Shown here: positions 20,834 to 59,461 of the stretch, in pieces | Position numbering within the stretch: position 1 is the stretch's first letter | Layout: each line of letters opens with the position of its first letter | DNA from: Zingiber officinale | Taxonomy: Eukaryota; Streptophyta; Magnoliopsida; Zingiberales; Zingiberaceae | Direction: 5' to 3' | DNA length: 64,000 nt | Assembly (NCBI RefSeq): GCF_018446385.1 | Contig: NC_056001.1 | Coordinates: forward strand, 106,432,436 to 106,496,435 | The notes under the pieces: model-generated | Told to the model about the DNA's origin: nothing | Database searches by the model: none | The model's input: the letters and a program-made list of their open reading frames with translations, nothing else | Translations under genes and position numbers: made by a program

Positions 20834-20963
20834 GCAGGTAGTCACAACCAAGCATGAGGATCTTAGCTACATTGAATTATGCGCGGCATAAATCAGAGAG
20901 CATATTCAGGCATCTATTATTTTAAAGTGTATTCATATGCATAGCTTGGTTAATAAAGTAGCC
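20834..20963 (+). pseudogene. C-terminal RNase H (RVT_3-like) scrap; outer end of the left palindrome arm
   Basis: Inverted match of 57,616-57,744. It encodes the tail of a non-LTR retroelement RNase H (VTTKHEDLSYIELCA). It begins at the right CACTA-type terminus and ends at the target site duplication TAGCC of the gypsy insertion. The longer version of the frame lies on the minus strand at 57,745-58,541. Confidence 0.75.
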
Positions 20964-21814
20964 TGATCCGGAGGTAAGGATGGGGGATCACTCGTTGACG
21001 GGAGGTCAATGACACGTGGAGGTCAATAGTCAAGAGGGTCAATCCCAAGGTCATGCCGAACGGCCAGAGGTCGTGCCGAGCGGAGTGGCGGACCGACTGA
21101 GCATCTAGCCGACCGGACATCTAGCCAAGGGTCTCCCGGACCGGACGAAAGACAGCCCGACCAGGGGTCGGGTTTCTGATGCTCAAGGTAAAAGGGTCTA
21201 TGGGCCGGGCGGACAGACCGCTCAGCCGAGCCACAGGACAATAAGGCGCAATTCCATCCGAGCACATGAGCAGGGCTTCCCAGAGGCCATGAGCGTCGAG
21301 CGGCTAGTCCGCTCGGCCCGGGAACAAGTAAGAGCGCTAGGAGACAAAAAAGGACAACTGGTAACTTCGTCCTCGAGACACCTGCCGCCGACAAACAGCA
21401 CGGTCGGCGTCCGGAGCGGACAGAGTATCGTACGGTGGAAGCTTCCACCGTCACATCCGGGATATGCTCGGACGATTGCGGAATGGCGTCAGGCATGCTT
21501 TTCTGACACAGCCTACTGATGTATGTTTGGGGAAGCGTACACACATCAAGAAACGTGCCCGCGCCTCCCCGGGGTCCTATATAAGGACCCCCAGACTTCG
21601 ACGAAGGTATGCAATTCTCATAACTGTAGCCACAGTAGCATTGCCTTGCTCTTCTTTTTCTTCACTGCCTGACTTGAGCGTTGGAGAGTCATCGCCGGGA
21701 AACCCCTCCCGACTTGGCTTCTTTGCAGGTTCGCCGGAGACCCACATCACCAGTTGAAGACAGCGTAGAGTGCCACGTCCCCAGTGTCCATCGACTCAGC
21801 GCTCGGACAGAATC
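20964..21814 (+). repeat. 5' LTR of the Tat/Retand-type element
   Basis: An 851 bp LTR, TGATCCGG...GAATCA. Against the 3' LTR it shows several substitutions per 100 bp in the first 180 bp plus a 15 bp insertion near 21,010, so the insertion is not recent. A GGGTCCTATATAAGGACCC-like TATA region lies at 21,571-21,590, the likely LTR promoter. Confidence 0.88.
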
Positions 21815-21861
21815 AAATTGGCGCCGTCTGTGGGAAACGTACTTGAATCCGAGCAAAGACG

Positions 21862-22098
21862 ATGGAAGAAGTTGGACCCCAACTCACGGTGACACTCTCT
21901 CCCGAAGAACTAGACACGCTCATCCAAGTGCGGGCAGCGAAGATGGTGGAGCAGCAGCAGAAGACTCAAGCCGAGCGGATTGCATGGCAGGCGACTTCCG
22001 CGTCGGACGGTAGGGCAGCACCAGAGGACCGACCGGAACAGCTCTCGATATGGGGGCAAAACAAAGGTCTGACCAGCACTCAGATGGAAGCGCCGCCC
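21862..22098 (+). pseudogene. Truncated gag start of the Tat/Retand-type element
   Basis: Starts ATG 21,862 (MEEVGPQLTVTLSPEELDTL), 47 bp after the 5' LTR and just past the PBS. This short charged, Gln-rich N-terminus is followed at 22,099 by the end of an inverted copia LTR. The rest of gag and all of pol are missing. Confidence 0.75.
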
Positions 22099-24502
22099 TG
22101 TTGGTTGCTACTCGGAAAACCTAGAGGTTCCACTGTACAAAAATTTTGTACAAAGGTCTGAACCTTTTCCTAGCTACCATGTGTTCTTTTAAATTAAATT
22201 TTGGATCGCCTGCGGAACTTAACACGTTTTATCCAAAACTTAATCTATTTGTTCTTCTAGGTTTTGACTTGGATCTCCTGCGGAACTTAACACGTTTGAT
22301 CCAAATCACCTAAGTTATTAATTCCATTAAATATTAATTTCCAAAATTGGTTCCCAGTACTGATGTGGCGAGGCACATGGCCTTCTTGGATATGGGAGCA
22401 ACCACCACCGACTAGACAAAACCTTTTAAGGAAAGCTAATATTTAATTTCCTAAAATAACTTTAAGTCAACCGAAAAGAACAATCAAATCACAAGGAAAA
22501 GAAAAACAAAAGAACACTATATCGAAAACAAATTCGAAACACTAGAATCGTATGCCTCTTGTATTTAGTATTTTTTCCAAAAATAACTAGTATAATGCGG
22601 AAAGAAAAATTACTAGTTATACCTTTTAGAAAGACCTCTTAATCTTCTACCGTATTCCTCTTCTAACCTCGGACGTTGTGTGGGCAACGATCGTCCAAGA
22701 TGAGAACCACCTAGGCACCTTCTTCCTTCTTCCTTCAAGTTTCGGCCAAGCACAAGAACTTCCAAAGGATGAAGAATTTTCCACCAACCAAGCTCCAAGG
22801 GATGCATGCTTTCTCTCCTTCTTCTCCTTCCTTGATCCGGCCACATCCTCCAAGCTCCAAGAGATGATAGATTTCGGCCACAACAAGAGGAGAGAAGAGA
22901 AAGGGAAGGGTCGGCCACCACACCAAGGAAAAGGGGGAGAAAACAATAGAAGTTGTGTCAATGAAGGCACCCCTACCCCTTCTTTTATATTCCTTGGCTT
23001 TGGCAAATAAGAAATTTTATTTATAATAAAATTTCCTTAACTTTCTTGACAACAATTAATTAAGAAAAATTAAATAAATTTTCCTAATTAATTGTATGTG
23101 GCCGGCCATCTCATGTAGAGCAAATAAGATAATTTTAATCAACAATTAAAACTTCCTTATTTGTCTTTGGAAATTTTTTAAAAAAATAAAATTTCCCTTT
23201 ATAATCCCTTCATGGTTGATAAAAAGAAATTTCTATAATTTTAATTTTTCAACATGTGAATAATTTTTAAAGAGAAAATAAAATATCTTTCCAATCTACA
23301 AATAAGGAAAGAGATCTAATCTCTTTCTTTAATCTTTTGTAGATCCTTTTAAGAGAGATATTTTAATTTTAATTCTCTTTATTAAAATTATATCTTCCAC
23401 ATAATAAAAATTAAAATTAAAATTCTTTTTTAATTTAATTATGGCCGGCCCCCTCTAGCTTGGATTCAAGCTAGGGCCGGCCACCCTAAACCATGCTTAG
23501 GCCGACCCTAGCTTGATTCCAAGCTAGCTTGGCCGGCCCCCTTTTAGGTGGGTATAGAAGGTGGGTATAGGTGGGTATAGTACTCTATAAATAAGAGGCT
23601 ACGATAGGGACTGAGAGGAGGAATTGGTTTTGGTCTCCCGATAAAATTAAGCATCCCGTGTTCGCCCCGAACACACAACTTAATTTTATCAATAATAATT
23701 CATTCCACTAGAGAACTATTATTGAACTACCGCACCAATCCCAAATTACATTTTTGGGCTCCTTCTTATTATGAGTGTGTTAGTCTCCCTGTGTTTAAGA
23801 TATCGAATGTCCACTAATTAAGTGAGTTACTGACAACTCATTTAATTAATATCTTAGTCCAAGAGTAGTACCACTCAACCTTATCATCATGTCGGACTAA
23901 GTCCACCTGCAGGGTTTAACATGACAATCCTTATGAGCTCCTCTTGGGGACATTATCAACCTAGTATCTCTAGGACACAGTTTCCTTCTATAATCAACAA
24001 CACACACTATAAGTGATATCATTTCCCAACTTATCGGGCTTATTGATTCATCGAACTAAATCTCACCCATTGATAAATTAAAGAAATAAATATCAAATAT
24101 ATGTGCTTGTTATTATATTAGGATTAAGAGCACACACTTCCATAATAACTGAGGTCTTTGTTTCTTTATAAAGTCAGTATAAAAAAAATGACCTCTAATG
24201 GTCCTACTCAATACACTCTAAGTGTACTAGTGTAATTATATAGTTAAGATAAACTAATTCCTAATTACACTACGACCTTCCAATGGTTTGTTCCTTTCCA
24301 TTTTGGTCGTGAGCTACTGTTTATAATTTATAAGGTACTGATAACATGATCCTCTGTGTGTGACACCACACACCATGTTATCTACAATATAAATTAATTG
24401 AACAACTACATTTATCATAAATGTAGACATTTGACCAATGTGATTCTTATTTCTAGATAAATGTTTATACCAAAAGCTAGGCTTTTAGTATACATCCTAA
24501 CA
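22099..24502 (-). repeat. Copia family A LTR 3 (3' LTR, inverted, nested in the gypsy element)
   Basis: 2,404 bp, reverse complement of LTR 1 and LTR 2. On the minus strand it starts TGTTAGGATG at 24,502 and ends CAACCAACA at 22,099, with the GTAC palindrome near 22,135-22,152, the GGCCGGCC boxes (23,100; 23,445-23,540) and the GTGTTCGGGGCGAACAC hairpin. The polypurine tract lies just above 24,503. Open frames at 22,613-23,010 on both strands fall in the LTR and are discounted. Confidence 0.87.
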
Positions 24503-27500
24503 ATCTCCCACTTATACTAAAAGACTAAGCTGCCATATCTGCTACCATACATCTGATTCCCAACCCTTCAACATGCCCATCAAAAGCTCTTGCCTTAAGG
24601 ACCTTAGTGAAAGGATCTATAGATCATCACCTGATGCAATCTAGGCGGCAACAACTTCTCCTCGTTTATACGATTTCTCGTATTGGGTGGTACTTGCGCT
24701 CTATTATGTTTACTTGCCTTATAGACTTATGGTTTCTTCGAGTTTGCTACTGCACCAATATCATTACAATAAATTGTAATAATCTTTGGACAAACCAGAA
24801 ATCATATCTAAGTCTATCTTGAGCTTATTGAGTCATTCAGCTTTTATGGCTACCTCAGAGGCTTGCCATATACTAAACTTCTATGGTAGAGTCCAGAAAA
24901 ACACCTATGTTTATCACTCTTCTATAGTTATGACTTTACCTCCTAAAGTAAACACAAAACCCCGAGGTTGACTTACTATTGTCCCTTTCCGATTGGATGT
25001 TAAAATCCATGCAACCCACAGGAAACAAATTATCTGCCTTATAAGCTAGCATATAATCTCTAGTGCCTCTAAGGTACTTCAATATATGCTTTACCGCAGA
25101 TCAATGTCCTTGTCCAGAGTTGCTTTGATATCTACTAACTATGCCCACGGCAAAATAGATATCCAGTCTCGTACACAGCATTTCATACATTAGGCTTCCC
25201 ATAGCCGAATCATAAGGAACTACCTTCATGTCCTTTATCTCCTTTGATGTCTACGGAGACATTTCTTTAGATAAAGTTACTCCATGCTAAAAATGTAAGA
25301 AACCTTTCTTGGAGTTTTGCATGCTTAAAACGAGCAAGGATTTTTTTCGATATATGAAGCTTGGGATAAGTAAAATATTCTTTTCTTGCGATCCCTTATT
25401 ACTTTGATCTCAAAAATATATACATTCTCCCAAGTCCTTTATATCGAATTATTTGGACAACCATACCCTTACTTCTGACAACATTTTGATATTGTTTCCA
25501 ACTACCAAAAATGTTATCTACGTATAGTACAAGAAATATCACCACGTTTCCATCACACCTTTTGTATACACAAGACTTATCCGTTTACTCAATAAATCCA
25601 AAGGTCTGGATTACTTTGATAAATCGGATGTTCCAAGACCTTGATGCTTTGCTTCAGTCCATAGACTGATTGAGCTTGCACATAAGATGTTCTTTGTCCT
25701 TTGCAATGAACCCTTCTGGTTACTTTATATGGATGCTTTCTTCAAGACTTCCATAAAGGAATGCTGTCTTGATATCCACTTGCCAAATAGATAAAAGAAT
25801 CTGGATAGACTTAAGCATAGCTACCAGTGAAAAAGTTTCCTTTTTCATCAAGTCTTGCTTTGAAAGTTTCCACCTTCCTGTTTATCCATCTTTTCCTATT
25901 GTAGACATATTTTCACCCAATGGATTTTACACCATCTGGTGGTTCTACAAGCTTCCAGATTTGATTAGAATACTTATATTCTAATTCTGTATTCATTGCT
26001 CTTTGCCAAGATGCTGCATCTTTATTTTGGAGTGCTTCATCATATTTCCGGGATCAGACTCATGTTCATTTGGGATCAAGTCCAAAAACTTTCCCAAAAC
26101 ATGAATCCTTTTGGTTGTTTGACAACCCTCCCACTACGATGATGTACTATCTATAATTGTGTATCAATTGTGATACGTGTTGCAGTTTCTTGTGATATTT
26201 CATCTTGTACAGTTGGTACTAGATTAGACATGTCCTTTATAATTTCTTTAAGAACAAATTTACTTATGGGCTTGTGGTTTATTACATAGTCCTTTTCTAA
26301 AAACGATCATTGATGCTAACAATGACCTTCTGATTTTTAAGACTATAAACCTACTTTCATTTCTCTAGGATAACTTACAAACAAGTGAATTCCTGTCCAA
26401 CTTATCATTGTCTCTCTTCATCATATGTGCTGGACTACCCGAATCTGAATATGCTTCAAAATAAGCTTATGCCTATTTAGCAATTCTATATGAGTAGAAA
26501 GTTCTGACTTTGGAAGGTACTATGTTCACTTCTATTTCCAGAGTATATCCTTAAAATGAATTTGGTAATTTTCCAAATAACTCATCATTAATCTACTTAT
26601 TTCCATAAGAGTCCTATACCTTCCTTTTTCTACACCATTCTGTAGGGGTGTACCAGGTGCTGTTAGTTTGGATTGAATCCCTACTTTTGATAAGTGACTC
26701 CTAAATTCTCCCAAGAGGTACTTGCCACTACGATCTCACCGTATTGTCTTGATACTTTTACTTTGACGTTTCTCCGCATCAGGCTTGTACTCTTTGAACT
26801 AATCAAAGTACTTAGTCTTGCGGCACATTAAGTAAATGTATTTGTATCTTGAATAGTTATCTATAAAATAGATGAAATATTCGATACTACCTCTTGCCTG
26901 GATAGTCATAGGATCACACAAATCAGAATGAACCAATTCCAACATATCTTTGGCTCCATACCCCTTAGACTTAAAAGCTTCTTGGTTATTTTTCCTTCCA
27001 AGTAAGACTCGCAGGTTGGAAAGATTTCCACTACTAATGAACCCAAAAGTTCATCAGCTACCAATGAATCCTACTTAAGTTAATATAACCTAGCTTTAGA
27101 TGCCAAAGATATAATTGGTTCATTTCCGAAGGTTGCTTTCTCTTAAAGTTAGAAGATGTGTTACTAATTTTCATTTGTTGCATCGTGGGAGTTATTGGAT
27201 TATAATTTGTCAACCAACATACTAGAATAGATAACTTCCCTATTTTTCTTGATAACAACTTTGTTATCAAAATAGACACAATATCTATTCTATAATAGTT
27301 TAGAAACTGAAATCAGGTTCTTTCTAAACTTAGTATGTAAAGACAATTTCTAATAATCCATATTTTATTCCTATTAGAGAATAAACCTCTCCCACTGCAA
27401 CAGCTGCTATTTTTGCAGTAGTGCCCATGTGGACGGTGTTTTAATTTTTATTTAGTTATCGGGTTTCCTGGAACCCTACAATGAATTGCAGACATGATTA

Positions 27501-27779
27501 ATGACATCTGTATCTACACTCCAGGTTTTGGTAGATAACATCACTAGACATGTTTCAACTAATGAATTAAATACACCTATATTGTTATTAGTTCTAAGAG
27601 GACAGTCTACCTTAATGTCCAAGTCCTATTTCCAATCATTTCAATTGGGACTACTAAGTCTTTTCTATAGTATAACAACTAGGGAATTGACAAACATTTT
27701 AAATCCTAAGAATCACAAAAATATTTGGTCAAGATCAACTCCTTAAAATCCCCATGAATTTTGTATGCCACGATAGTGA
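24503..27779 (-). pseudogene. Decayed copia family A pol, nested, 5' end missing
   Basis: Minus-strand remnant in the order, from high to low coordinate, protease traces (about 27,540-27,360), GAG-pre-integrase (27,279-27,058, LYLWHLKLGYINLSRI), integrase end (26,714-26,532, TPLQNGVEKGRYRTL), RT (about 25,960-25,480) and RNase H (about 25,000-24,540). Many stops break it. Homology to the 4.7-7.97 kb copy ends at about 27,779 in the GTATGCCACGATAGTG motif. The 5' LTR and leader are lost and gypsy 3' sequence follows directly. Confidence 0.8.
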
Positions 27780-28100
27780 AGACCCTCGAGCGGCGACATT
27801 AAACTCTAGTTTTGGACCGACGACTATAAACCCTCTGGCTTGAAGACCGTCAAGCGGCGACATTAAACTCTAGAGTCGGACCGACGACTATAAACCCCCC
27901 CCCCCCCCGGCTTGATGACCGTCGAGCGGCGACGTTAAACTCCAGAATTGGACCGACGACTATAAACCCCCCGAACGGGACAGCGTCGCGCAGATAGACT
28001 GAGGCCCAGCATCTAGGGTCGATGATCAACAAGCCTTGATCCTAAGGACAGGGAGAAAACAATGGCGTGCGCTTACCAACGTCGATCAACGAAAAACTAA
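27780..28100. repeat. Tandem repeats in the 3' region of the gypsy element
   Basis: Three units of about 65-72 bp (from 27,780, 27,846 and 27,917), each with GACCGTCGAGCGGCGAC, then TTAAACTC and GGACCGACGACTATAAAC. The second unit carries a run of 14 cytosines (27,895-27,908). Such repeats upstream of the antisense ORF region are usual in Tat/Retand elements. Confidence 0.75.
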
Positions 28101-28440
28101 CGGAAGTTCCATGTGGAATGAAGATCGTTAGACCGAGCGGCGCAGTCGAGAAAGACACTTCTAACAAAAAAACTAACGGAAGTTCCATACGGAATGAAGG
28201 TTGTTTCACCGAGCGAGGAAGTTAAGAAATTACATGCGGAAAAAAGGTCGATCGACCGGTCGGCACAGTTACAAGGAGCACTCAAACGAAAGGCTAACAT
28301 AGCAAAAGTTGGCATTCCAAAGTTACATTTAAAAGTTCGCCGACCGGGGGCAAAGTTACAGATGTAATTCATTAGAATTAAGGTTAGCCGATCGGGAGAA
28401 TTGCAGAAAATACTTCATTTAAGGTAATCGAAAACATGCT
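28101..28440. other. Non-coding 3' region of the gypsy element
   Basis: Degenerate copies of AACTAACGGAAGTTCCAT followed by GGAATGAAGRTCGTT (about 28,095-28,200) and gypsy-type sequence containing CGACCGGNGGCA-like boxes. No gene is seen. Confidence 0.5.
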
Positions 28441-29873
28441 TCGGAATGGTGGTGAGAAGCGCCGCATGCTCCGTAGCAGGGATGACCACGGATTCGGGAA
28501 GCTGACCCTTGGACTTCAGATAGTCCACCGTGGCGGTGATGGCCAACTCGAAGGCGATGACCATCCGGTCGCAAACCTTCTCCACAAATTCCGCGAGCGG
28601 ATGTAGTTTTGCCTCAAGGTGGCGACGCAGTCTGGTTCTGCCTCTTGGTACTCCTTGAAGGCGGCACGGGAAGCATCAAGAGCCTCCTATAAGGCCTTCA
28701 AATCGTTCTTGAGTTTAGTCACCTCCTCCGAGTAGCCTTTCTGCTCTCCTTCTAGTAGCTCGGCCATCTCTTTCACACGCTACTCCAGAGCTCGGGCTTC
28801 CACATTCTTTTTATCTAGATCAGCGATAGCAGTGTTCTTCCGAGTGGTGGCGAGCTCAATCTTGCGGTCATAAGTTTTGACCTGCTTGTCAAGCTGGTCC
28901 AGCATGTATGCCTGGTCGGCCGTCTTCTTCCTCTCGGCCTCCAGCAGGCCCTTGGTCTTTGCGAGCTCCTTCTGCAGCTCGGCATATGAAAAGCCTTAAG
29001 AAGAAGATGGGCTGCCCGGACCCTTCAGTCTCTTCAACTCCTCCTCCACTAAGGCCAAGCGGCTGGCGACGATAATGTCTTCCACCCATCTCTGAAATGC
29101 ACAGAAATGTTAAAATGCCGACCGGAAAGACTACATAAAAGAGCAGGAGTGAAGCTTACCCCTGTAGCTTGCTGCATGCGGCCGTCAGCCAGTTTGTCAA
29201 GTGGTATCATAGCTACGCGGGCGTCCACCCACATCTCAGCAAGGGGCCCCTTGATAGTGATCATGTGTTCAGGAGCCGTCGGCAGATCTGACTCAGCCAT
29301 AAACGCCTCGGTGGGGAGGTGCAGGGTGGCCCTAATAGTGCGGCGCCGCCCCGGAGTCGTGTGAGCGAACGCCGAAGGATCGGAGGTCGGGCTGGACATT
29401 GTGGACAGAATGCCTAAGCGGCGGACTCGGTGGGGTACAGGAGGAAGGGAGCTGACCGGTACCACTTCGATGGGGGCCGCAGGCGGATCCAGTTGGGAGG
29501 GGGTCCGGTCGGAGGAGAGCGCCTTGACCGATGGCGCTTTGCCGCGTGGAGATGTGGTGCCCATCCGCTCGGACGCTTGCACTGCGGAGGTGGCCGAACG
29601 GAGGGGAACCTCCACCCGGCGTCGCTTCTGATTGAGGGGAAGTTCGTCGTCCGGCTCCGAGTCATCCTCCCGAACGGAAGGGCCCTTGCTGGAAGTTGCA
29701 CCACCAGTCGCCTCCGCGGGCGAAGCCTGAGCGGCCGACTCCCCTGCATTTGTCGCGCTCTCACCCTCGTGAGAGCCGACCGGAGCGATGCCCAACTGCT
29801 CCATTTCCTTGGCCGTTGTCGCCTCGAGCGCGGCCGCTTTCTTCTTCAAGATCCTGAACAACACGGACTCCAT
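28441..29873 (-). CDS. Antisense ORF of the Tat/Retand element, C-terminal coiled-coil part
   Basis: Minus strand. An open frame of 274 codons (29,873-29,049) starts MESVLFRILKKKAAALEATT, passes through an acidic/Ser-Pro-rich middle with a basic KRRRVE patch, and ends near a splice-like junction. The strand then keeps coding-like heptads to about 28,441 (for example KGLLEAERKKTADQAYML, ALEWRVKEMAELLEGEQ), interrupted by single stops near 28,995 and 28,690. Antisense ORFs with coiled coils between pol and the 3' LTR are described for Retand-like Tat elements. The role is unknown and it is not a host gene. Confidence 0.7.
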
Positions 29874-30092
29874 TACGATGTTCGCTGCAAGAAAAAAAAG
29901 AAGAAAATCAGTTAGAACTCAAGGCAAATGCACAAGTAAATTTCTTACCAAAGTTGCTCGGGAGGGGGGTCCAGCTTGGACTCAAACCGAATATATACAT
30001 CACTCCTTCAGGTAGGAGCTTGTTGATGTCGAGCTTCAGACCGGCTAGCATATTCGCTGCTTAGAGGTAGTCCGGTCGGGTTTTATACTTCT

Positions 30093-30989
30093 TCAGCTCG
30101 AGAGAGATGGGCGGTCCGACCTGCCATTTGGTCCGGAAAGGAAGCCGACCGGGGATACGAAGAAAAAAGTAGTTCTCTTTCCAATGTTTGTTGGAAGAGG
30201 GCAATTTATCAAAAAAGACCAAACCAGGCTGAGCCTGAAATAGATAAGTGTCCGGCTCAGACTGCTTGGAATAATAAAAATAATAGAAAACTTCCGGGCG
30301 GAGGGGAATGTTGTGTACTTAAATAAGACCACAACTCCGCACAGAAGGTGAAAAGTGTTGGGAACCAATTGGGCGAGCGGAATGCCAAAGAAGTTGCAAA
30401 CTTCAACGATGAAGGGGTGGAGGGGAAACCGCAGACCGGCTACGAATTGGTCACGGAAAAGACAAAAGGCGCCGCGCGGAGGTTTGTGCGGCCGAGCGGA
30501 AGGTGAAGGTAAAATCAGTTCGAAATCTGAAGGAATATCAAAAGCGTTTAGCAGGCTCTCGACATCGCGTCTATCGAACCGCGACTCCATGGTGGTATAC
30601 CATGGGCCGAGAGCGAGGTCCGCGGGCTGAGAAGAGCCTGCCATCGCCGGAATAACGGAGGAGGCAAAAGTCAAAAGGAAAAGCAAAGGCGCGAGCGAGA
30701 AGATGAGTGAGACAGTACCCGAAAGGCAAGAACGCGGCCAAGAACGAAAACACGGGAACCAACGAGAGAAAGGCAGAAGAACCTTACAGAAAAGATAATT
30801 GAAGGAAGAGGGCGAGGGGTCGCCGGAATGCCGGGGAATAAGATCACCGGAGCGAGGAGTGCAAGGAGAGGCTTCTGAGCACGCAAAGACAAAGATGCGG
30901 CGGTGGAAGGCGGCGAAAGCCTTATAAGGGTGGACTCGATCCGCCCAAGCCGTCGGATGCAGGTCACATAACCCGAGGCCTGCATCCAA
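30093..30989 (-). CDS. Antisense ORF of the Tat/Retand element, putative gypsy-type transposon domain
   Basis: A 298-codon open frame. The conserved part begins near residue 115 with MAGSSQPADLALGPWY, then an LRFPLHPFIVEVCNFFGIPL block typical of the plant 'putative gypsy type transposon' domain (Transposase_28-like, by recognition). The N-terminal 110 residues are Ser/Pro-rich and may not be translated. After about residue 225 the frame departs from the family pattern, suggesting an intron or frameshift before the 29,873 frame. It lies antisense to the element's gag. Confidence 0.65.
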   Translation of the reverse strand: MDAGLGLCDLHPTAWADRVHPYKAFAAFHRRIFVFACSEASPCTPRSGDLIPRHSGDPSPSSFNYLFCKVLLPFSRWFPCFRSWPRSCLSGTVSLIFSLAPLLFLLTFASSVIPAMAGSSQPADLALGPWYTTMESRFDRRDVESLLNAFDIPSDFELILPSPSARPHKPPRGAFCLFRDQFVAGLRFPLHPFIVEVCNFFGIPLAQLVPNTFHLLCGVVVLFKYTTFPSARKFSIIFIIPSSLSRTLIYFRLSLVWSFLINCPLPTNIGKRTTFFFVSPVGFLSGPNGRSDRPSLSS

Positions 30990-31350
30990 CCGTCCATTTC
31001 AAACCGACGGACGTCGCATCGGGCGTAAGGCGGCGGTCGTACAATGACGTCGACAGTGCCACGTGGCACTCGGTCAGAGGAAGACATTTAATGAGATCCA
31101 TCACGAGGCAAAACTCGCGTGCTCAACCATAAGGGCGGAGATTTGCACGCATTCCGAGAAGATCCCGAGGACATCATCACAGGCCAGTGGGGCAGCCCTC
31201 GGCAATTAGCCAACCGACTCTATTCGACCCCATAGGGGCCGAGCGGAGGTACACTTTCGGGAGTGGCGGGTCGGCTATTGCTCGGCCAAACTCATAGTCC
31301 AGACAGTCAGACTTAGCGCCTCTTTCGACTAGACTTGAGGGGGAGGCATG
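30990..31350 (+). other. Gypsy 3' untranslated region and polypurine tract
   Basis: No gene. It ends with TTGAGGGGGAGGCA (31,335-31,349), a plus-strand purine tract immediately before the 3' LTR, which confirms the element's plus orientation. Confidence 0.75.
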
Positions 31351-33280: not shown

Positions 33281-33344
33281 TTTTTAAAAATCTTTACCCA
33301 TTCAAAACAAAGAAGCTAAGAAACACGAGACCATAACACAGGAA

Positions 33345-47283: not shown

Positions 47284-48835
47284 ATGCGGACTCAAAACCC
47301 TAAGTATTTTCTTTACACTCTTCTCATTTTTTTTTTATTCTTGCTCCTATACTTGAACTAATCTACATGTGCCTTGTGTGTTTTTGTGTGTTGCCTTGTT
47401 TTCTCCTCATGCATTGCATTGCATGCACTGTTCTTGCATTTTTCTTATATCTCGTTCCTTCATTTTTTTTGTTGCACTGCAACATCGTTTGCCATTGTCT
47501 TTCATGTTCTCTCAAATAGAAAGAAACAAAAAGTTCATGAATCGGGTGAAGGATCGTCCGTACCTCCATCACGCCCATTACCTCCTACTGATATGAGATT
47601 CCCTAATGCTGCTATGCAGCAGGCCTTTAGCAAACACACCTTCAAGCTAATAACCCCTAGGTCTGTTGATCTCCAATTCTACAGAACCTCCTGCTTTGAT
47701 ACCTATTCTCGTTTCCGACACTATAAACTTGAGTTGATGTTATCTTGTGAGAGGAGTGTCAATGTCGGTCTTGTCTCTGAATTCTACAACAATCTGCACA
47801 CCTCTGATGGTATAAACTATCGCACTCGTGTTGCGAAGCGGACCTTGGATTTTTCCTATGATCTTTTTCAATCCTTTCTAGGGTGTCTACCATCCACCAA
47901 TGATTTTGTTTTCTATCCCACGCTTCCTGATGAGTTGCCTCCACCATTTCAGCATCTCAGCATTGCATCTATGTATCAGTTCCTTTTTGATCGTCCTCGT
48001 CCGGACGGGCAGGATGCTCACATCACTAGTTTCTCTTCTCTTGAGTTATCGGCTGAGAATGCTGCCTTGTTTAATGTGATCATTAACTGTCTCTTTCCTA
48101 TTGTCTCACGCGCCTTAGCTGCTCTTCGACCTCCTCACATGTTTGCATTATATGCCATTCGGCATTCCCTTGACATCAACATCGCCCTGAACATCTTTCA
48201 TTGCATCATTCATTTTACTCAGCCAGTGCAGGAGTCGATTCACATGCCTTACGGTCATCTCATCACTGACTGGCTGGAGTTTATGAAGATCGATGTCTCT
48301 CGAGGACGGCTGGAACCCATGACTGTCGCCTACTCTCGGATTTCTTCCCGTTCCTTCACGAAGACGGGCTTAGCAGGCGGTCCAGGGGGAGTTCGTTGGC
48401 GCGATGGGCGTGCCCTTGGTGAGGGACCCCGGGGCTCGTCGCAGGGGGAATGCACAGGCTTTGGTTCCTGCGGCCGGTGATGCTGAGGAGGATATCCCCG
48501 AGCCAATTTCTCTGACATTCGAGGAGACTGTCGATACTCGCCTTGAGGAGTTGACCATGGAGGTTGCCAGCTTGCGCACTGCAATGGATACCATGGTCCA
48601 TCGACAGACTACGATGCAGGCGACTATGGACACATTGGTGGATTTGGTGAGCTCTTGGGTAACGGGGCCTCCGTCTCGGTCTGTTCCATCCACGGATCCC
48701 GTCCCACCTGCTGAGGATATTCCTGTTGCTGCTTCTGCAGTCGATCTTGATCCAGCTATTACGTCTGCTCTTTCTGTTGATCTTGATCCCACTCCTCCGG
48801 GAGATGATCTCGTTGAGTTCTATGTTCCCTTATGA
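47284..48835 (+). pseudogene. Sirevirus 3' ORF, right copy, frameshifted
   Basis: Same predicted spliced start (ATG 47,284; intron 47,304-47,519). The open frame 47,374-48,480 ends early because an extra C near 48,430 shifts the frame. The C-terminal coiled coil continues in a second frame (48,404-48,835). The left copy lacks the extra base. Confidence 0.75.
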
Positions 48836-49275
48836 CACGTGTTATTGTACGTTATGTGGATGCTTGTTGTGGAGTCCTCCTGTGAACTTCACTTTATTTT
48901 GGGTGTATGAAATACTACTTGTTCTATATTTTATTTTATTTCTGAAATCATGGTTGTTCTATTATGCTAATATATGTGTGTTTTAGGGGGAGTACCCCTC
49001 GGATTTCTCGTAATTGCTTAGTGCACATATTGAGGGAAAGTTTTGTTTTGATCTTTGACAAAGGGGGAGATATATGTTGAATTGTATGCTTAATTATACT
49101 TAATTTAATTAAAATTAAAAAAAAAACTGCTTATGTTCATGTGTTACCTTGAATTACTACGCAGTTCAGGTGATATTCAGCGTAGTTACAAGTATTATTT
49201 ATCATTGTATTATTATGGTGTATTGGAAATTACCCTAAACTTAAATAGATTGTCAAACATCAAAAAGGAGGAGAT
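48836..49275 (+). other. Sirevirus 3' UTR with polypurine tract (right)
   Basis: Mirror of 40,519-40,958. AAAGGGGGAGATATATGTT lies near 49,059-49,077 and AAAAAGGAGGAGA immediately precedes the LTR at 49,276. Confidence 0.65.
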
Positions 49276-50640
49276 TGTTGGTGCAATCATGCCCTGGGAG
49301 TTTCAATGTGTTGACAATTGCTTAAGTTTAGGTTAATACGTTGGATCTAACATGCATTGTGAGTTTACAGGGGAAGTTTCTTGCAGGTCGGAAGATCAGA
49401 TGCAAGAGAAGTCCAAGAAGGTGGAGGATCAGATTCTTGGCAAAAGAGTCCTTGCAGGTCAGAAGACCGGATGCAAGGCAAGAGAAGTCCAAGAAGGTCG
49501 AGGACTGGATTCTTGGCAAGAGAAGTTCTTGCAAGTCAGAAGGCTGGATGCGTGTTAAGCTCACTTAGCAAGAATCGATTGGTAAATTGATTTAGACATG
49601 GCTATGAGGCAGAATGCCTTTGAATCGATCAACCGATCGATTCAAAGTAAGCCAATCGATCGGGAAGATTTTGTGCGAAGCACATAATGCTTCTGGATCG
49701 ATCAGCCGATCGATTGGGGTAATCCAATCGATAAAGTGATCAATCCAAGAAGATTTTGTGCGAAGCACAGAATGCTTCTGGATCGATCAGCCGATTGATT
49801 GGGGTAATCCAATCGATCGAGCGATCGATCCAAGAAGGTTCTGTGCGAAGCACAGAATGCTTCTTGATCGATCAGCCGATCGATTGGGGTAATCCAATCG
49901 ATCAAGCGATCGATCCAAGAAGGTTCTGTACGAAGCACAGATTTCCCCTGAATCGATCAGTCGATCGATTCACCGAGCTGTGATTTCACGAGCAAGTGTC
50001 TGAATCGATTCAAGCACTGCCCCCAATCGATTCAAGTTAAATGAAAGAATCTGCACCGTTGATTTTACGGGATGACCTCCAACGGATACTTGTGAATCAA
50101 TTGGGATACAAACCCAATCGATTCACGGCGACGGTTATGTGAGAAACGGCTAGTTTTCACATCGTTTAAAAAAGCTGGAAGAAAAAGAAACGGATTATCT
50201 TTTGAGAAAACTACTGTTCTATTGCTCTAGTGTGATCAATCTTTGAAGTGCTCAAGATCTCTCAAAGGATTGAAGATCAAACTTTCCATTTCCGCACGTT
50301 TTCAAGATTCACGTCACAAGGAAGAAGCATTTCAAGTTTGTAATATTTCTTTTCTTCCTCATTGTTGTGAGTGTGATCTTTTCTCTTGGAAAGGGAGGCT
50401 TGTAAGTCTTGTAAGGTTTCTCCACCTTCGGTGTTAGTCTGAGAAGAAGAAGTTTGATAGTGGAAAGGGTGACGGTAGTGTGGATCCTTGGACTAGTCAT
50501 CTCCTTGAGGAGGTGGATACCAAGTAAATACAAGAGTTAGCATTGCCTTCAAGTGTCCGCTGCGAAAGATCAAATTTATCAAGAAAACGAAGTGAGCCAT
50601 TCACCCCACTCCTCCTCCTCTATCTCAACCGATCCTAACA
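49276..50640 (+). repeat. Sirevirus 3' LTR, right copy
   Basis: 1,365 bp, the exact length of the left copy, with only a handful of substitutions (for example the positions matching 40,212, 40,431 and 40,488). It carries the same 85 bp ATCGATC-rich tandem units (about 49,655-49,938). It ends 233 bp from the right gene's stop codon. Confidence 0.9.
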
Positions 50641-50873
50641 ACATGGTCATTAAGACTTTAAGAATGTATTAATTAGCTAATTCATCCACTCATTCTAAAT
50701 AAAGAAAGATCCGTAATATTATATTATGATATGATACACGTGTTTTATGATACGTTCGATTTGAAACTCGGCCCATCTCATGGCCCATTTATCTTATTTC
50801 TACATTTTTTTTTTCAAAAAAAAAACAAAATCAATTAAATTAAATTAAATTAAATTAAAATTATTTCTCCGTT
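50641..50873 (-). other. 3' untranslated region and flank of the right gene
   Basis: Reverse complement of 38,921-39,153 with identical homopolymer and AATTT-repeat lengths, which is notable because such runs normally change fast. Confidence 0.6.
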
Positions 50874-53800
50874 TCACGCCGTACTGTCGATCGGAACGGG
50901 CGTGCGGAACCGCTCCATGGCGTCCGCAATCTTCTGCCGGTGCGCCGGCGAGGTGAAGTCGTCGTGCAGGAAGAACTGCGTGATCCGGGCGTGCTCGAAC
51001 ATCAGTCTCCGGCAACTGCGAGGCACCAAGCTCGGCTTCAGGCTCTCGTGCACCAACTCGTCGAACGCCTCCTCCATCTGCGCCTCCACGTCGCCCAACG
51101 CTTCCTCCTCCCTCCGCTTCCCCACCTCCATGCTCACCGCCACCGCGTTCATCCCACCCTGCGCCAGCGAGTTCTGCAAGCAGCGACGCGAATCATGATC
51201 CATTCAGAAAAATTCAATTATATTCAAAGTCGATCGATCGATCGATCGATAGTACGTACCTTGTGCATTTGGAGATCGACGTAGAGTCTCAAGAACACCG
51301 AGAGCATCTCCTGGATCCTGGATTTCTCGTTCAAGCAAAGCAGATCCAGATCCCTGAGACGCTCTCCCATCAGAAACACGGAAGGTAGCAATCTGACGGC
51401 GACGCCCAGTTCGGTTTTACCATGCTCGATGTAGTCCTTCAATGAGTACTCCCCGCTTTGTCCTCCCAATTTAGTCTCCCTGAGTTTCATGTACATCTCC
51501 ATTTGCTTCTTCCTCTGTTTTCATCATTTTATTTCAGTTATTTTACTCGAATTGAATCGAAGTCTGTAAATTTAATTTCTTCCAACTGTTCTCGGTACTT
51601 ACGAGTTCATGGAAGTAGGGGAACACATCCTTCCCTTGGACTTTACTGGCTTCCCCTGCTAATTCATTCAGAGTCTCGTACAAAACATTGAATGTTGTTT
51701 TCAACTGAGATGGAAGTGAAAGAGCCAGCGAGGGATTCCACCTGCAAACAAATTACAAGCTCGATCACTCAGCGATTCCATTCCATTCCATTGCATTGCA
51801 TTGCATTGCATTCCAAATCAAATTAAATACTCACTCTTCGACTGCTCGGCACAGATTCTTCAAGTCCTCAGTGGATTCATGTTTGTAAAACAGATCTACG
51901 AGAACGTTTTCGATGGAGTTCGATTTGGTGTAGGCAATTCTGCTCCTTGCAAACTCCGGCTCAGGCAGAGTAGAAGCAATGGCAAAGTGAAGCTGCTCCG
52001 GAGACAGAGAGGTGGCTTCCAGTCCACAGCTATTCCACCATCTGTTAAGATCATATACGACATTAATTAGGGTTTTAACTACTTCAAAACCCCCAAAATT
52101 GACAACAGTGAGGAAGCAAGCTCGACGTACTCTACAATGGAGCCGATCTCCTTTTCGTATATTGCTTGCAGCCTGTTGAACTCCAACTTCGCGAGTTCTA
52201 GGTATTTTGGATTCGTCACGTTGTATATCCTAAAATTGAAGGCACAAGAAGAATGATCAGCTAAATTCTCATAGTAATCAATCAATCAATGAAGATCGAA
52301 GAATGAACAATCAATCACTCACAAGTAAATGGTCTTGGCGAGCCAGACATCGTTGTCTCCGTAGTGGTCAAGGTATTCCCTGGCATCGAGCCTGGGGAAG
52401 CTCCTCCTCCATGGGTACTCCAAGCCACGAGCAACCTCCTTGCCCAGTGCCTTCTTGCAGGACCACTTGTCGTCCACTTTGTTGTTCTTCACGCAGTCCT
52501 TCAAGTAGGACTCCACAAAGGCATTGGCTTCTTTCAGTATCTTCTCGCCGGGGAAGGCGACTTGGGAGAAGCGATACAAGTTGAACATGTCCGAGACTCC
52601 ACGGTGCGTTTGGCCGGGGAAGCATATGAAATTGCCATCGTCGTCTCTGAAAAACTCGATCATATCTGAGGAGACAGGGTAACCATACAGCCTCATCAAA
52701 CGGAGGGCCATGCACGTATCGTCAACGTCAGGAACTGTGTTGTCTCTGCCCCAAGAAACGCCTTGTTTCCCAGAATATCTGTTCAAATTAAATTAACACG
52801 AATTTTTAATAGCTAGTCTCGTTTTAATCTGAGATGAAATGCTGGTGTACTGATCGTGCATACTTGTAAACATAATCAAGAGTGTCGATGATCTCCTTCT
52901 TGAAGAGATGGTCGATTCCAAGCCTTGCGATCGTATCGATCGCCCAGATGCGCTCGAAGAGGTCGATCGGGTACTGGCAGGGCACTGTGATTCACCACGT
53001 TCAATGAATCAATTTAAAAGTAATTATTAAGCAGTCGAAGAATATATTAACTTACAGTTATCTCCAAATCTGTTTAGTACAGATTGCAAGAACTCAAGGC
53101 ATTTCTTGTCGCCGGTGTTCATGTAGACAGCGGCGGTGGAAGAAGCCGAGCTGAGGAAGCTCCCGTCTGCGGATTGAAGCTTGAGAATCTCGTCCCATTG
53201 CACGACCTCCTGCAAGGCTTCTAGCGTGTATAACAGCGTCGTGTGCACTGAATGCATCACTTTCACTGGGATTCTGCCACAGAGTTGTAGTTTGTGAGGA
53301 TTCAATTGCCGGCGGTTATAGATCGTTACTATGATCAATCGATTACCTACCTGCCCATCTTCTTTTCCCTAAATTTGATGATTTTTTGAATGGACGGACG
53401 ATCATAAGGAAGATCAATCCCCATATTCTTGGCTTCGTTCAACATGGAAGGGAACGCAATCTCGAACCCGCTTGTTATCAGGCTCTCGCTCGCCGTCTCT
53501 ATTTCATCCACATGGTTCTTCAGGTAATTTAGACCTGCAAGATGAAGTCGCATGATCAATTTAAAGTAATTAATTAATTAATTAATCAATATCAAGGTCG
53601 ATCGATTTGGTCAGTACCTTTCTCGATTTGGTCTTCTGCTATATTCCAAGTTTTCAGTGCAAGAACGCACGCCAGAGTGCAGACCAAGCGATCGAAGACG
53701 AGGTAGTACGTGGGCTCGCCCCAGGAGCCGTCTTCCAACTGGTTCTTGAGAATCCAATCGATAGTCTGCGGGAAATGGGGCTTGCTCGAGTCCTCTGTCG

Positions 53801-54238
53801 ACGGAATCCTCGCCACCCACGCGGTGTCGTAAGCCGAGGCGTTCGTCTCTCCGTCGTCCATCAACCGGAAGATCTGTTTGATTTCCTTCACCAGCGTCTC
53901 CCACCTCTCGTTCTTCGCCTCATCCGTCTCCGCCTGAAATTAAGTTTATACAATTATCTAACCGTAAGAAGAAAAACGCAGTCCGATTTCAGATCACGGA
54001 GCAGTACCGGAATGGCCGGCAGCCGATCGGAACCCTTTTTCAGCAGCTCGACTTGTGGAGATTGCGTTGCTCTGAGAGAGATATTCCTGGCACGCCTCTT
54101 GCTCTGCGATTGAATGGCAAACGTCTGGCTCCCCTGGCCGAAGCTTGCGCCGCCATTGCTGATCCTCACAGCGGCCGAGCTCCGGCGAGAGCTTATCAGG
54201 CTCCTCGAAGCGGAAGGGAGCTGGCAAAGGCCTTCCAT
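50874..54238 (-). CDS. CPS: Class II diterpene synthase, copalyl diphosphate synthase-like (right copy)
   Basis: Intact second copy, exons in order 54,238-54,008; 53,933-53,618; 53,534-53,351; 53,273-53,056; 52,984-52,864; 52,778-52,323; 52,229-52,131; 52,041-51,835; 51,741-51,603; 51,514-51,260; 51,173-50,874. Same 841-codon length, DVDD at 374-377, Tyr259, Cys319, Arg328. By eye the protein differs from the left copy at only two residues, Pro8 for Ser8 (leader) and Thr80 for Lys80 (just after exon 1). I found no difference in exons 3-11. No indel falls between start and stop. Predicted role is the same: plastidial GGPP cyclase of specialised diterpene metabolism. The two genes face each other tail to tail. 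Confidence 0.95.
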
Positions 54239-54516
54239 GATCTCTGATCTCTCTCTGTTCTGCCTCGTATAGTAAGATCAACTACTTGAGGTCGTCTTTG
54301 GCTTTCACTGGCTGCGATGACACGATCGAGCAAGCTTCTTTATAACTGAAGAGAGCAGCGTGGCGGCGTTGAACTTGGACTACTGGAAGAAGTGAATGCG
54401 TCAACAAGGGGCGATGGCGGAGCACGTGCGACTCACCGCCGTGCCAAACAACCGCAGAGTGCCGGCGTTGACGAGGTAATTTCCATGCTGCAACGTCGGT
54501 CAACGATGTAGGCGCG

Positions 54517-54597
<81 letters not shown>
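54239..54597 (-). promoter_or_regulatory. Proximal promoter and 5' UTR of the right gene, microsatellite expanded
   Basis: TATAAAG at 54,344-54,338 and CACGTG at 54,423-54,428, as in the left copy. The 5' UTR has an extra CTAT. About 2 % substitutions separate it from the left promoter. The short GA tract of the left gene is here a long (GA)n at 54,521-54,548 plus (TA)n at 54,549-54,596, directly abutting a MITE. Confidence 0.6.
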
Positions 54598-54599
<2 letters not shown>

Positions 54600-54849
54600 A
54601 AATGTTAGCATGCGGTGCTTATGATGCGGAGTGTCTTCCTGATCGATCTCTGGACCGATCAGGGAACCTCCTGATCGGTCTACGGACCGATCAGGAAAAC
54701 TCCTGATCGGTCAGGGAACCTCCTGACCGATCAGGGAAATTCCTGATCGGTCTACAGACCGATCAGGAGGTTCCCTGATCGGTCACCAGACCGATCAGGA
54801 AGGTAACCGCACCAAAATCACACGAAATGCATCGCAGGAGAGCATTTCT
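54598..54849. mobile_element. MITE in the right gene's promoter
   Basis: 252 bp absent from the left arm. Imperfect terminal inverted repeats AGAAATGTTAGCATGCGGTG and, from the other side, AGAAATGCTCTCCTGCGATG. The inside is a series of CTGATCGGTC / GACCGATCAG palindromes (about 54,638-54,802). It is flanked by TA repeats, so the target duplication is obscured; TA-type insertion is plausible. It sits about 360-610 bp upstream of the ATG. Confidence 0.8.
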
Positions 54850-55986
54850 CTATATATATATATCTTTTTTCAAAACAAATACACATATTATTGACGAGAA
54901 AAGGTCAAAATAATGATTTCCTATGATTAGAAGAATTGACGACTAATTTTGAATTTAAACACTCGTTGTTAAACTAAAATTTGACTAATTAAGATGGTTC
55001 GGACTAAAAAGAAGATGTTTTAAAGCACTCGACAGAAAAATTATTCACCTAATGATGGTGGAGGAATCTCCTATAAGTTATCAATTTTATGAACTGATTG
55101 CTATTTAATATAATTGTCCTTCTACAACTGTAGTCACTCATTGACGCCATTTTACATAATTATTTATCTATTTAATATAAATAATGTAGCAATTAATTCT
55201 TCTAAATACATTAAAAATATTTCCTATTAAAAGTATTTCACATTTTATATTTTCTAGATATATTTTCACAAATTACTTAAATAACCAAATGAAAAAGTAT
55301 ACTGTGATTACATTAATGAAAAATCTACTATAACTTATTTGAGTGTTTATATGCAATGGATAATATTGAGTTAATTATATTAAACTAAAAATGCATCTAA
55401 TTAATAAGGCATTTATATAACACAATTTAATTTTTCTTTTATAGACTTAATAATAATAAGAGCATGCTTAACCCCTTGGATCCCCTCATTAATTTGATTT
55501 TTCTTCTATTGTATTTGATATTAGGTGTCTAAAAAAATAATGATTAATCAGGTTGGGTAACGTCGATCCTGGGTGATCGGTCTGATCCTATAAAAATTTT
55601 CCACCAGCCATTAGGATAAATCAGGAAACATTTACGATAGATAGCCCAGAAGTCAAGCATCTTTACGCATTGTTTGGGACGAGATGAAGGAAGGGGAAAG
55701 AAGGGTAGGGAAGGAAAAGGGAGACTTGAAATCCTATTTGGGAAGAATTGAGCTATAGAAAGGAAAAGTAAGAAGGGTAAGCTTTAACCTTCCTTATCCA
55801 TGAAACGAAATAATTTCTTATATCCCAATTTGGGGTGTAAAGAAGGGTAAGGGGAACTAAAATAATTTATGTTCTAATTTTTATCGCTGTTTTATTATAT
55901 TAATTCTAAAAATTATTATTTTAAGTATTCTTTTGTGTCGCTATGAAGAACATTCACACTTCATGACACTCGCACTCCATCAACGT
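54850..55986. repeat. Recurring block between promoter copies (right)
   Basis: Inverted match of 34,441-35,204, extended to about 55,970 with sequence that the left arm lacks but that the 17,636-17,900 copy has. Non-coding, AT-rich. Confidence 0.7.
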
Positions 55987-56220
55987 AGACTTCGATGCCA
56001 ACGGCGACTCGACGCCAACGCTAACTTCGACGCCAACGTGGACTTTGATGCCGACATTGACTTTGATACCAATGTCGATGCCAACTTCTACTTCAATGTC
56101 AACACCGACTTTGATGCCAATACCGACTTTGATGCCGACACTAATTTTGATACCGACGCTAACTTTGATGCCAATACCAACTTCGACGCCGACGTATACT
56201 TCAATGCCAACGACGATGAG
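55987..56220. repeat. 18 bp minisatellite, right arm
   Basis: About 13 imperfect 18 bp units, plus strand of the form GACGCCAACTTCGATGCC. In one frame it reads F-D-A-N-x-D style repeats. Unit number and sequence differ from the left arm copy. Confidence 0.8.
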
Positions 56221-56553
56221 GTTATTAACAAATGAGCTACAATTACTTAAATGAGTAAGTCTTAACTAATAAATATACGTAATATACATTAAATTATTGA
56301 ACACTTACATCTTTAACAAAAGTGAAAGTAATTTTATAATTATTGAACACTTACATCTTTAATAAAAGTGAAAGTAATTTTATAATTTTATATATTTAAT
56401 TTTTATTATTCTCATTTTTTTTTTCCAAATAAGATAACACATAATAGATTAATAACCTTCCTTCTCTTCCAAATAAAAAAAAATATAAATACTTCTCTCT
56501 CTTCTCCCCTCTTTTTCTTTCATTAATGAATCTTTACTCATCTGTTCAAACAG
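56221..56553. other. Right-arm intergenic DNA, no gene
   Basis: Contains a right-only 46 bp tandem duplication (56,293-56,338 and 56,339-56,384). Otherwise AT-rich and matching 33,760-34,200 inverted. Confidence 0.6.
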
Positions 56554-56724
56554 GGGCAGAGATCTCCTGGTCCGCAAATTGCGGATCAGGGGATGGTCCA
56601 TTGATCTGGACCTTTCATTTGAATGGACCCCATCTTTAAATAAGTGGGGTTCATTCAAATCAAAGATCCACATGTAGTGGACCATCCCCTGGTCCGCAAT
56701 TTGCGGACCAGGAGATCTGCTCTC
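56554..56724. mobile_element. Foldback MITE, right arm only
   Basis: 171 bp hairpin (GATCTCCTGGTCCGCAAATT near the left end, mirrored at the right end). It is flanked by a perfect 9 bp duplication TTCAAACAG (56,545-56,553 and 56,725-56,733), the size made by Mutator-like transposases. The left arm has a single related sequence at this place. Confidence 0.88.
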
Positions 56725-56944
56725 TTCAAACAGAGGACTAGTTAAGTTTCCATTTTATTGTTTTTATAAATATATCATAATTAATATTAGGTATTAGCTT
56801 ATAACTTAGGTTTTCTAATTTCATAAATTTGATCCCACGCAATCAATTGACGTTATCAATATTACTAACTCAATTAAGAAAAAATTACCCGTTTACTCAT
56901 CAATCTATTATTCTAGGGGCAATTTATTATTTTTTTTTCTCTGG

Positions 56945-57165
56945 ACTATTGGCAGAAGTGATGCGTCAATAAGACGCGATGGCGGAGCACGTGCGACACC
57001 GCGCGCGCTGCCAAACAACCTCTGCCGGCGTTTAGGAGCTTTCCATGCTGCCACGTCCGTCAACGATTCTGGCGACTGGATTTCTGCGTTGACTAAAAAA
57101 GCTTATTATATTTTCTCTTTTTTTTTTTTCCAAAACAAATACACATGTCGTTGACGAGAAAAAGT
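56945..57165 (-). promoter_or_regulatory. Upstream duplicate of the diterpene synthase promoter (right)
   Basis: Inverted counterpart of 33,345-33,562, with CACGTG at 56,988-56,993, CATGCTGCCACGTCCGTCAA and GTTGACGAGAAAA. No gene follows it before the recurring block. Confidence 0.78.
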
Positions 57166-57615
57166 CCAACGATAGTTCTTGTGTTATGGTCTCGTGTTTC
57201 TTAGCTTCTTTGTTTTGAATGGGTAAAGATTTAAAAAAAATAAAAATTGAGAAATGTTTAATCACTAGTCGTGGTTCATTTTCTAATCTGTACGGCGCAT
57301 TCTAGTGCTTACATCACGCGATTAAATTCGTTCACCAACAATAATTAACATAATCTTATTAGGTCTCCTACATAGCTTCTTTGCCTTGCAAATTAAATTA
57401 ATTTATATACTTTAAAAATTTATATCAAACTGATAATTTATCACCCAACTTTGATGATGATAGGTTTACGTCTAAATGTTAATAATCATAACCATTTTTT
57501 TACGATAAAAATTCATCATCTTATTGCAAAGGATTATCCATTACAAGTTTAACTAACTGGGAAGAAAATTCACCGTTCACCCGCACAAAGGAGGAAGGAG
57601 AAGAAGAAATTATGG
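57166..57615. other. Right-arm intergenic DNA, no gene
   Basis: Uninterrupted counterpart of 32,185-32,572 plus 33,281-33,344. It lacks the left-arm foldback. AT-rich, no coding sequence. Confidence 0.65.
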
Positions 57616-58541
57616 GCTACTTTATTAGCTGAGCTACGTATATGAATACACTTTAAAATAATAGATGCGTGAATATGCTCTTTGATTTATGCCGCACATA
57701 ATTCAATATAACTAAGATCCTCATGTTTGGTTGTGACTACCTGCACTGTCAACAGAGAATCGGATGCCACTTAAATGGCTCGAAGATCTTTCTTATACAG
57801 AAGCTTGATCCTTTCTCGGATCACCAGAAGCTCATCATGCACTACCAAGATAGGTTGATTGATTTGTTTTCCAAATGCTAGTAACAAATGGCCTTGTGAG
57901 TCTTGAACAACCCAACCCCACCGACGCTATATTGATGTCGGTCCTCAAACACAGTTGCATTCACATTGAGCTTAAGGGCGCATGAACTTGGCGATTTCCA
58001 CATCTTCTCCTGATTACTCTTCTCAATTTGAGAAGCAATTTTCTCTTTTATTCGGGCCTTTCTAAAATCATCAAGCATTGTAGAGCTCCAAAAATACTTT
58101 GTGCCATCACTTTTCTCCTATCCTCATGGAGAAAGTTTTGTTTTTCAGTCCCGATTGCCCACATGTGGATCGCAAGGTACTCAAACTCCTTTTTGAATAT
58201 TTGTTCTTTCAACCATATGCAAAACCTCTGAAGTGCTAGTCTATCTAGCCCCCTTAAAAATATGGGCAAAAGGGGTGTTCTTCCATATGTGTTTTATGCA
58301 ACACAGAAGAAAAGAGCATGGCAGATCGAATCCATAGGAAAACTACACAGACAATAAGATTCACTAACAGAGACATGGTGTAGGTGGAACAGAAAGATCC
58401 CATATAAATGCTCACAAAGATTCGATGGATATTCTGATTGGTTCTCTGAAGGGGAGAACAACCCATATTGGAGACGACACCCATCATGCACCATATACTT
58501 ATCCTTGGCATGGAACCTCTAGAAAAGCGAATCACACACAA
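57616..58541 (-). pseudogene. Decayed non-LTR retroelement C-terminus (zf-RVT and RNase H-like)
   Basis: The minus strand from 58,541 gives a zf-RVT-like region (MDSICHALFFC), then a linker, then an RNase H domain of the RVT_3 type (LKLNVNATVFEDRHQYSVGG; further on RAI-VASDSLLTVQVV and TTKHEDLS). Stops and frameshifts occur at about 58,300, 58,040 and 57,790. The last 129 bp are shared with the left arm (20,834-20,963). No RT domain is seen upstream. Confidence 0.75.
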
Positions 58542-59445: not shown

Positions 59446-59461
59446 AAATTGGCGCAGTAAA

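Follow-up and report, generated by a model that had tools for sequence, protein, structure and literature searches.

An inverted pair of diterpene synthase genes in ginger with near-identical arms that end in a truncated Copia element

Gene-carrying inverted repeats with arms more than 99 % identical have been described from sex chromosomes, among them the human Y palindrome P6 (PMC3723533) and palindromes of the willow W chromosome (PMC7023750), in which multi-kilobase stretches differ between lineages and not between arms, and inversions are rare. Conversion tracts in P6 have a mean length of 2,068 bp and a maximum of more than 9 kb (PMC3723533), and a 3-kb region without arm differences is reported from Salix purpurea (PMC7023750). 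The long inverted gene pairs of Caenorhabditis are convergent or divergent homologues whose inverted structure outlasts sequence divergence (PMC1803023), while the plant specialised-metabolism gene family of the soybean I locus forms an inverted repeat that extends over 27 kb, with down-regulation by small interfering RNAs (siRNAs) reported (PMC3804491). The present analysis concerns an inverted pair of diterpene synthase genes in ginger, Zingiber officinale, located in a stretch of 64,000 nucleotides (C16:106432436-106496435, hereafter the window) of a genome of 3.09 Gb. The pair shares the features named above with the sex-chromosome palindromes, and differs from them in having no known sex linkage, in being far smaller, in the comparison being made between two haplotypes, and in having arms that end in a broken Copia element. 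It resembles the Caenorhabditis pairs in arrangement and in the persistence of its structure, although those were compared between species and the ginger pair between haplotypes of one plant, and it resembles the soybean locus in gene content and form, although the siRNA down-regulation reported there would be conjectural in ginger. The locus is best placed among gene-converting inverted gene pairs, a class already known. No description of it was found in the titles and opening lines of abstracts of the literature searched; papers listed for copalyl diphosphate synthases of Zingiberaceae were two reviews and a work on a fungus. The main text of both ginger genome papers makes no mention of terpene synthases, diterpenes, palindromes, inverted repeats or gene conversion. 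The structure probably arose from an old inverted pair that has been homogenised by conversion and was tightened in C16 by copy-and-join repair.

The gene copies in the window, on chromosome C16, are designated B1 and B2, and those on C15, which appears to be the homologue of C16 in the haplotype-resolved assembly, A1 and A2. Copies were taken from one genome search in which 10 candidates were scored, and copy counts are lower bounds. Comparison of the window with itself placed the left inner arm, composed of B1 and the 3' part of a Copia element, at 35263 to 42876 on the plus strand and its mirror at 46918 to 54536 on the minus strand, with 99.46 % identity over 7,620 columns (34 mismatches, 5 gap openings, 13,838 bits), a likeness far above chance expectation. 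The spacer between them (42877 to 46917, 4,041 bp) holds no repeat of the arms. Each arm carries a gene of 11 exons encoding 841 amino acids, B1 at 35556 to 38920 (plus strand) and B2 at 50874 to 54238 (minus strand), and both gene models are intact, in agreement with the two complete genes lying tail to tail that a preliminary description of the window had claimed. B1 was identified from its gene model, homologues, relatives in the PDB and motifs; every intron is GT-AG and 841 codons precede the stop, and the start of B2 at 54238 was taken from the coordinate sum. That sum, previously given as 89,794, also held: nine of the eleven exons mirror each other letter for letter, and the first two, each with a mismatch, were placed by their 3' ends.

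The arms of about 10.8 kb in that description were confirmed as an inverted repeat, but the near-perfect part extends over only about 7.6 kb per arm. The outer 3 kb or so, at 32180 to 35262 on the left (plus strand) and 54537 to 57744 on the right (minus strand), is an older, diverged inverted duplication, in which BLAST pieces of the left side match 54537-57640 at 74-95 % with indels. Position 57744 is the outer end of the duplication, beyond which the sequence is syntenic to the flank of A2. The left boundary proposed earlier, 20834, does belong to the left arm, the segment 20834 to 20963 (plus strand) being its outermost 130 bp (91.5 % identical to 57744-57615); it is split off by an 11.2 kb long terminal repeat (LTR) element at about 20964 to 32179 (no strand assigned), identified by its LTR pieces (92-94 % alike), a target duplication (TAGCC/TAGCT) and empty sites in A1 and B2, the two copies checked. 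An open reading frame (ORF) at 30093-30998 within this nested element has a gypsy-type Pfam match (PF04195).

Evidence for conversion was obtained from site counts over B1, B2, A1 and A2, excluding gap columns and following the logic applied to the willow W palindromes (PMC7023750). In the gene core, 35869-38920, all 42 of the 42 variable sites (22 exonic, 20 intronic) group B1 with B2 against A1 with A2, and none separates the copies within one haplotype, so that differences exist between lineages and not between arms. Such haplotype-only variation is a signature of gene conversion. Over the same stretch B1 and A1 differ at 2.69 % of intron and 0.96 % of exon positions, and the sites were therefore able to show differences between copies, yet none did. 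A1 and A2 are 100 % identical over 35869-37419 (1,547 columns) though about 238 kb apart, while in 38921-39154 they differ at 6 sites and B1 and B2 at none. The global alignment of B1 and B2 shows 12 mismatches over 35263-35868 and 23 over 39513-42876, with 35869-39512 free of them, and an empty block of this size has P = 4.7e-8 under a uniform spread of mismatches. Within the Copia element alone, 1 of the 23 mismatches lies in 39157-40205 (P = 0.005 for at most 1 of 23). The older divergence kept in the outer arms supports the conversion reading. In the flank 34771-35263, 8 sites support the crossed pairings B1-A2 and B2-A1, 2 sites pairing by position and 1 pairing within haplotypes; the crossed pairing is opposite to that of the outer unique flanks and fits the prediction of arm exchange. 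The structural instability attributed to the repeat in the preliminary description is supported by the spacing of the copies (about 238 kb on C15 against 11.5 kb on C16) and by the exchanged flank in one segment.

The homologous chromosome supplied the comparison for the age of the pair. On C15, A1 (plus strand) and A2 (minus strand) stand in the same orientation as B1 and B2, and the distances just given were measured between shared 3'-flank ends. Synteny with the outer flank of A1 extends, in pieces, over window positions 16201-20962, and synteny with the outer flank of A2 over 57744-63113. Because the inverted order and the syntenic outer flanks are found on both homologues, the pair appears to predate the separation of the haplotypes. 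Over 35869-39154 the C15 copies share 98.4-98.5 % identity with the window copies, and no large Copia match was found in the 9-12 kb behind them. On the inner side of A2 a FAR1/MULE transposase-like ORF (L011:7085-8185) follows the 3' end of the A2 unit at a distance of about 0.9 kb. Broken 3' fragments of the same gene on the minus strand, running from part of exon 6 to exon 11, were found on C15 (A0, C15:130280933-130282634) and C16 (B0, C16:106392773-106394480); they are probably allelic to each other, and their ends in the 3' flank roughly coincide with those of the full copies.

The size of the spacer agrees with the 4.04 kb reported previously, but it is not separate DNA, since it continues the Copia element that forms the inner 3.7 kb of the arms. 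This 5'-truncated LTR element occupies 39154 to 46891 on the minus strand and was delimited by its LTR, its ORFs and alignment to L019, a Copia copy on C3 whose LTRs are 97.1 % alike over the fetched part. Its 3' LTR is on the gene side, beginning with TGTTAGG at 39154 with CATGT just before, and is followed by an env-like ORF (40959-42431), pol ORFs (43477-46683) and a break in gag at about 46891. Window positions 40131-46891 align to L019 920-7695 without a break at 96.3 %, and for this reason the end of the inner arm and the spacer are regarded as one element on the minus strand. The spacer is thus its gag-truncated pol region (minus strand), in which integrase lies upstream of RVT_2 (rve and gag_pre-integrase in 45130-46683, RVT_2 in 44510-45208), and the LTR is common to the window element and L019. 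Sirevirus-type Copia elements are marked by an additional env-like ORF that separates pol from the 3' LTR; the 490-aa product of the candidate ORF here has a PF20167 match below Pfam's cut-off. Copia sequence of this kind is spread over the genome, with at least 109 matches to 39160-42876 at E <= 0.001 (40 of 4,166 candidates scored).

The opposite side of the junction carries an inverted copy of the env-like ORF and part of the LTR (46918 to 50640, plus strand), recognised by its matches to L019: 46920-49663 is L019 3662-920 reversed at 95.8 %, and 49749-50641 is LTR at 91 %. Between this copy and the break lies a filler of 23-26 bp (46892 to 46917, no strand assigned) that matches neither Copia nor arm, and a 13-mer of which occurs also at 45300. 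Eight Copia copies were examined at the break site; four of the four that extend over it lose homology at 46891-46894, three have no match at the break and one (L022) ends earlier. In B1 and B2 the LTR begins at the same nucleotide of the gene 3' flank, and A1, A2, A0 and B0 have different sequence at that site. Two independent Copia insertions in opposite orientation were rejected since the insertion point is identical to the nucleotide in both arms, and a complete LTR element inserted as a spacer into a perfect palindrome was rejected since no flanking LTR pair is present and the spacer continues the arm. In 40131-42876, 22 mismatches are split 11/11 between the arms, and 17 of them, with L019 as the reference, are C>T or G>A changes. 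Genuine mutation of a methylated element would be expected to leave this pattern.

These observations suggest the following order of events. The inverted diterpene synthase pair would have arisen before the ginger haplotypes parted, and ectopic conversion from arm to arm would then have maintained the likeness of the two gene bodies in each haplotype as differences built up between the haplotypes. In C16 a Copia element may have inserted just behind one copy. If the DNA then broke somewhere between the two copies, the B2-side end could have invaded the matching B1 gene and copied the gene and the Copia element up to 42876. Once released, it would have been end-joined, through about 26 bp of filler, to the second broken end in Copia gag (46891). 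Such a repair would leave near-identical arms, a spacer continuing the Copia element and a distance of 11.5 kb between the copies. Conversion at a later time, over a tract from 35869 to 39512 or perhaps 40205, may have erased what differences were left in the gene. End joining agrees with the filler and the truncated Copia element, and copying with the near-identical arms. The spacing on C16 is provisionally read as a loss of about 230 kb from C16 rather than a gain in C15.

Several observations weigh against this account. The LTR stretch 39157-39512 taken by itself is mismatch-free with P = 0.10, which is no surprise, and a lower mutation rate in the gene than in the element accounts for part of the empty block. 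Arm exchange is suggested by one segment, 34771-35263, and the three segments further out give pairings of 1 vs 1, 0 vs 0 and 1 vs 0. A second diterpene synthase locus, about 80 % identical to the window genes, is present as direct-oriented pairs on C9 (133910000-133919900 and 133981000-133986000) and C10 (123729000-123738900 and 123831500-123838500). The two C9 copies are 96.9 % identical in the longest piece, and the two C10 copies, about 101 kb apart, are 99.34 % identical over 3,787 columns; high identity within a haplotype therefore does not need inversion, and inversion may not be the cause of the homogenisation. Duplication in the recent past, or a homogenising process that works in either orientation, has to be taken seriously as an alternative. 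Had the gene core been re-duplicated in inverted form separately in the two haplotypes, without ongoing conversion, identity within and difference between haplotypes would likewise follow, and the C10 pair would be a parallel. Such separate duplications are nevertheless unlikely, as the inverted order, syntenic outer flanks and diverged outer arms on both homologues indicate that the pair pre-existed, and to replace nothing but the core of a pair already in place amounts to conversion under another name. The mismatch-free block also spans the border between gene and LTR, though the LTR part is unsurprising by itself.

The tight palindrome of C16 could also have come from the assembly, by a wrong join or by duplication of a consensus, the true spacing being like that of C15. 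The roughly twenty-fold difference in spacing between the homologues speaks for this reading, but it is judged quite improbable. The arms differ at 35 aligned positions, the C15 copies carry no Copia element at the site and so cannot supply a second Copia-bearing arm, the outer flanks are syntenic on both sides, filler is present at the junction, and C15 of the same assembly likewise has an inverted pair. The same absence of Copia from the C15 copies, their identity of 98.4-98.5 % to the window copies, and the synteny of both flanks contradict a head-to-head join of two haplotypes, which had been named earlier as a possible source of the structure. Fold-back read artefacts are expected to yield near-identical arms without a spacer, which counts against an assembly artefact, and this source was rejected in view of the differences between the arms, the spacer and the divergence of the outer arms. 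On the other side, miscalls at methylated C could mimic some of the C>T differences, and the short-read polishing of a Nanopore assembly could smooth near-identical copies; the ginger assembly is based on Nanopore reads with many rounds of short-read polishing (PMC8342452). A role as a silencing locus, in which convergent read-through would give hairpin RNA and siRNAs that damp the gene family, has a precedent in the inverted chalcone synthase genes of the soybean I locus (PMC3804491) and would suit genes that are inverted, convergent and near-identical. It is very improbable here, given that both reading frames are intact, that read-through must cross 11.5 kb of Copia sequence, and that silencing leaves the origin of the structure unexplained. 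Conversion of an old pair with copy-and-join repair is accordingly preferred.

All four full copies of the gene (B1, B2, A1 and A2) are intact. The B1 and B2 proteins differ at two residues (S8P and K80T), and the A1 and A2 proteins are identical to each other and 13 residues apart from B1. The best match of B1 among solved structures is the Abies grandis abietadiene synthase AgAS (PDB 3s9v; residues 84-826, E 1.9e-225). B1 has in common with AgAS, one of the bifunctional abietadiene/levopimaradiene synthases, the class II DxDD motif, as DVDD, and differs from these enzymes in being without the class I motifs, with VDLFYK at the DDxxD position and YVDLQMHKNS at the aligned NSE/DTE position. 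A class II product, predicted to be a copalyl diphosphate (CPP)-type diphosphate, is therefore expected rather than isopimaradiene, the product in the name of a near-identical NCBI entry, and a bifunctional isopimaradiene synthase was rejected on the lost DDxxD. In the Abies enzyme, changes of a tyrosine and a nearby histidine redirect (+)-CPP to 8-hydroxy-CPP (PMC6779861). Aligned to it, B1 keeps a tyrosine (LLYTLE) and has glutamine in place of histidine (PCQ vs PCH), and these residues may be the two positions named in that review (PMC6779861). Terpene synthase N- and C-terminal Pfam domains were found in P0001, a 99%-identical protein, for which an NCBIfam scan gave no match; two exon-bearing ORFs of B1 have terpene synthase Pfam matches, the C-terminal one below Pfam's cut-off.

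An unrooted FastTree tree was calculated from 38 rows, namely two ginger translations and 36 proteins chosen among 120 listed of 143 found. The ginger gene falls in a branch of Amborella and monocot proteins (rows including P0002-P0010, P0012, P0028, P0030 and P0036) that is set apart, with support 1.000, from the usual angiosperm copalyl diphosphate synthases (TPS-c) and the remaining rows. Among these chosen rows DxDD is present in 15 of the 15 members of the branch and DDxxD in 0 of 15. Outside the branch, the best-scoring relatives among the matches listed are conifer-type bifunctional synthases, and the unrooted tree does not fix the attachment point of the angiosperm branch. TPS-d was described as gymnosperm-specific in a 2021 orchid survey (PMC8268431).

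Elsewhere in the window, positions 1-10545 and 22099-27778, left of the palindrome, form another group of repeats, some inverted and some direct (74-89 %), with relatives in the fetched C15, C10 and other C16 loci. Positions 63234-63997 are 75 % similar to sequence adjoining the B0 fragment. A diterpenoid biosynthetic gene cluster would have P450 or class I synthase genes nearby; seven of the 15 listed flank ORFs were scanned against Pfam with no match, a scan that did not look for short-exon genes or into the wider neighbourhood. A plasmid search gave no match.

The palindrome, so far known from the assembly only, is ordinary in kind but informative. Its designation as unusual was overstated, because 16,787 inverted duplications between haplotypes are reported in the ginger genome paper (PMC8342452) and inverted copies as such are common. 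If reads confirm the arrangement, formation, by one-sided homologous copying and end joining in a retrotransposon, and upkeep, by conversion tracts, would be legible at one locus, with the C15 homologue serving as the comparison. More tentatively, and with considerable doubt, inverted paralogues in this clonal, largely sterile crop may act as mutual repair templates on ordinary chromosomes, the pair being kept identical independently in each haplotype and its arms trading places, much as on a Y or W but without a sex chromosome. If confirmed by reads, the locus is also a warning that haplotype-resolved crop assemblies hold near-identical inverted gene pairs, which studies of allele pairing or expression may confuse.

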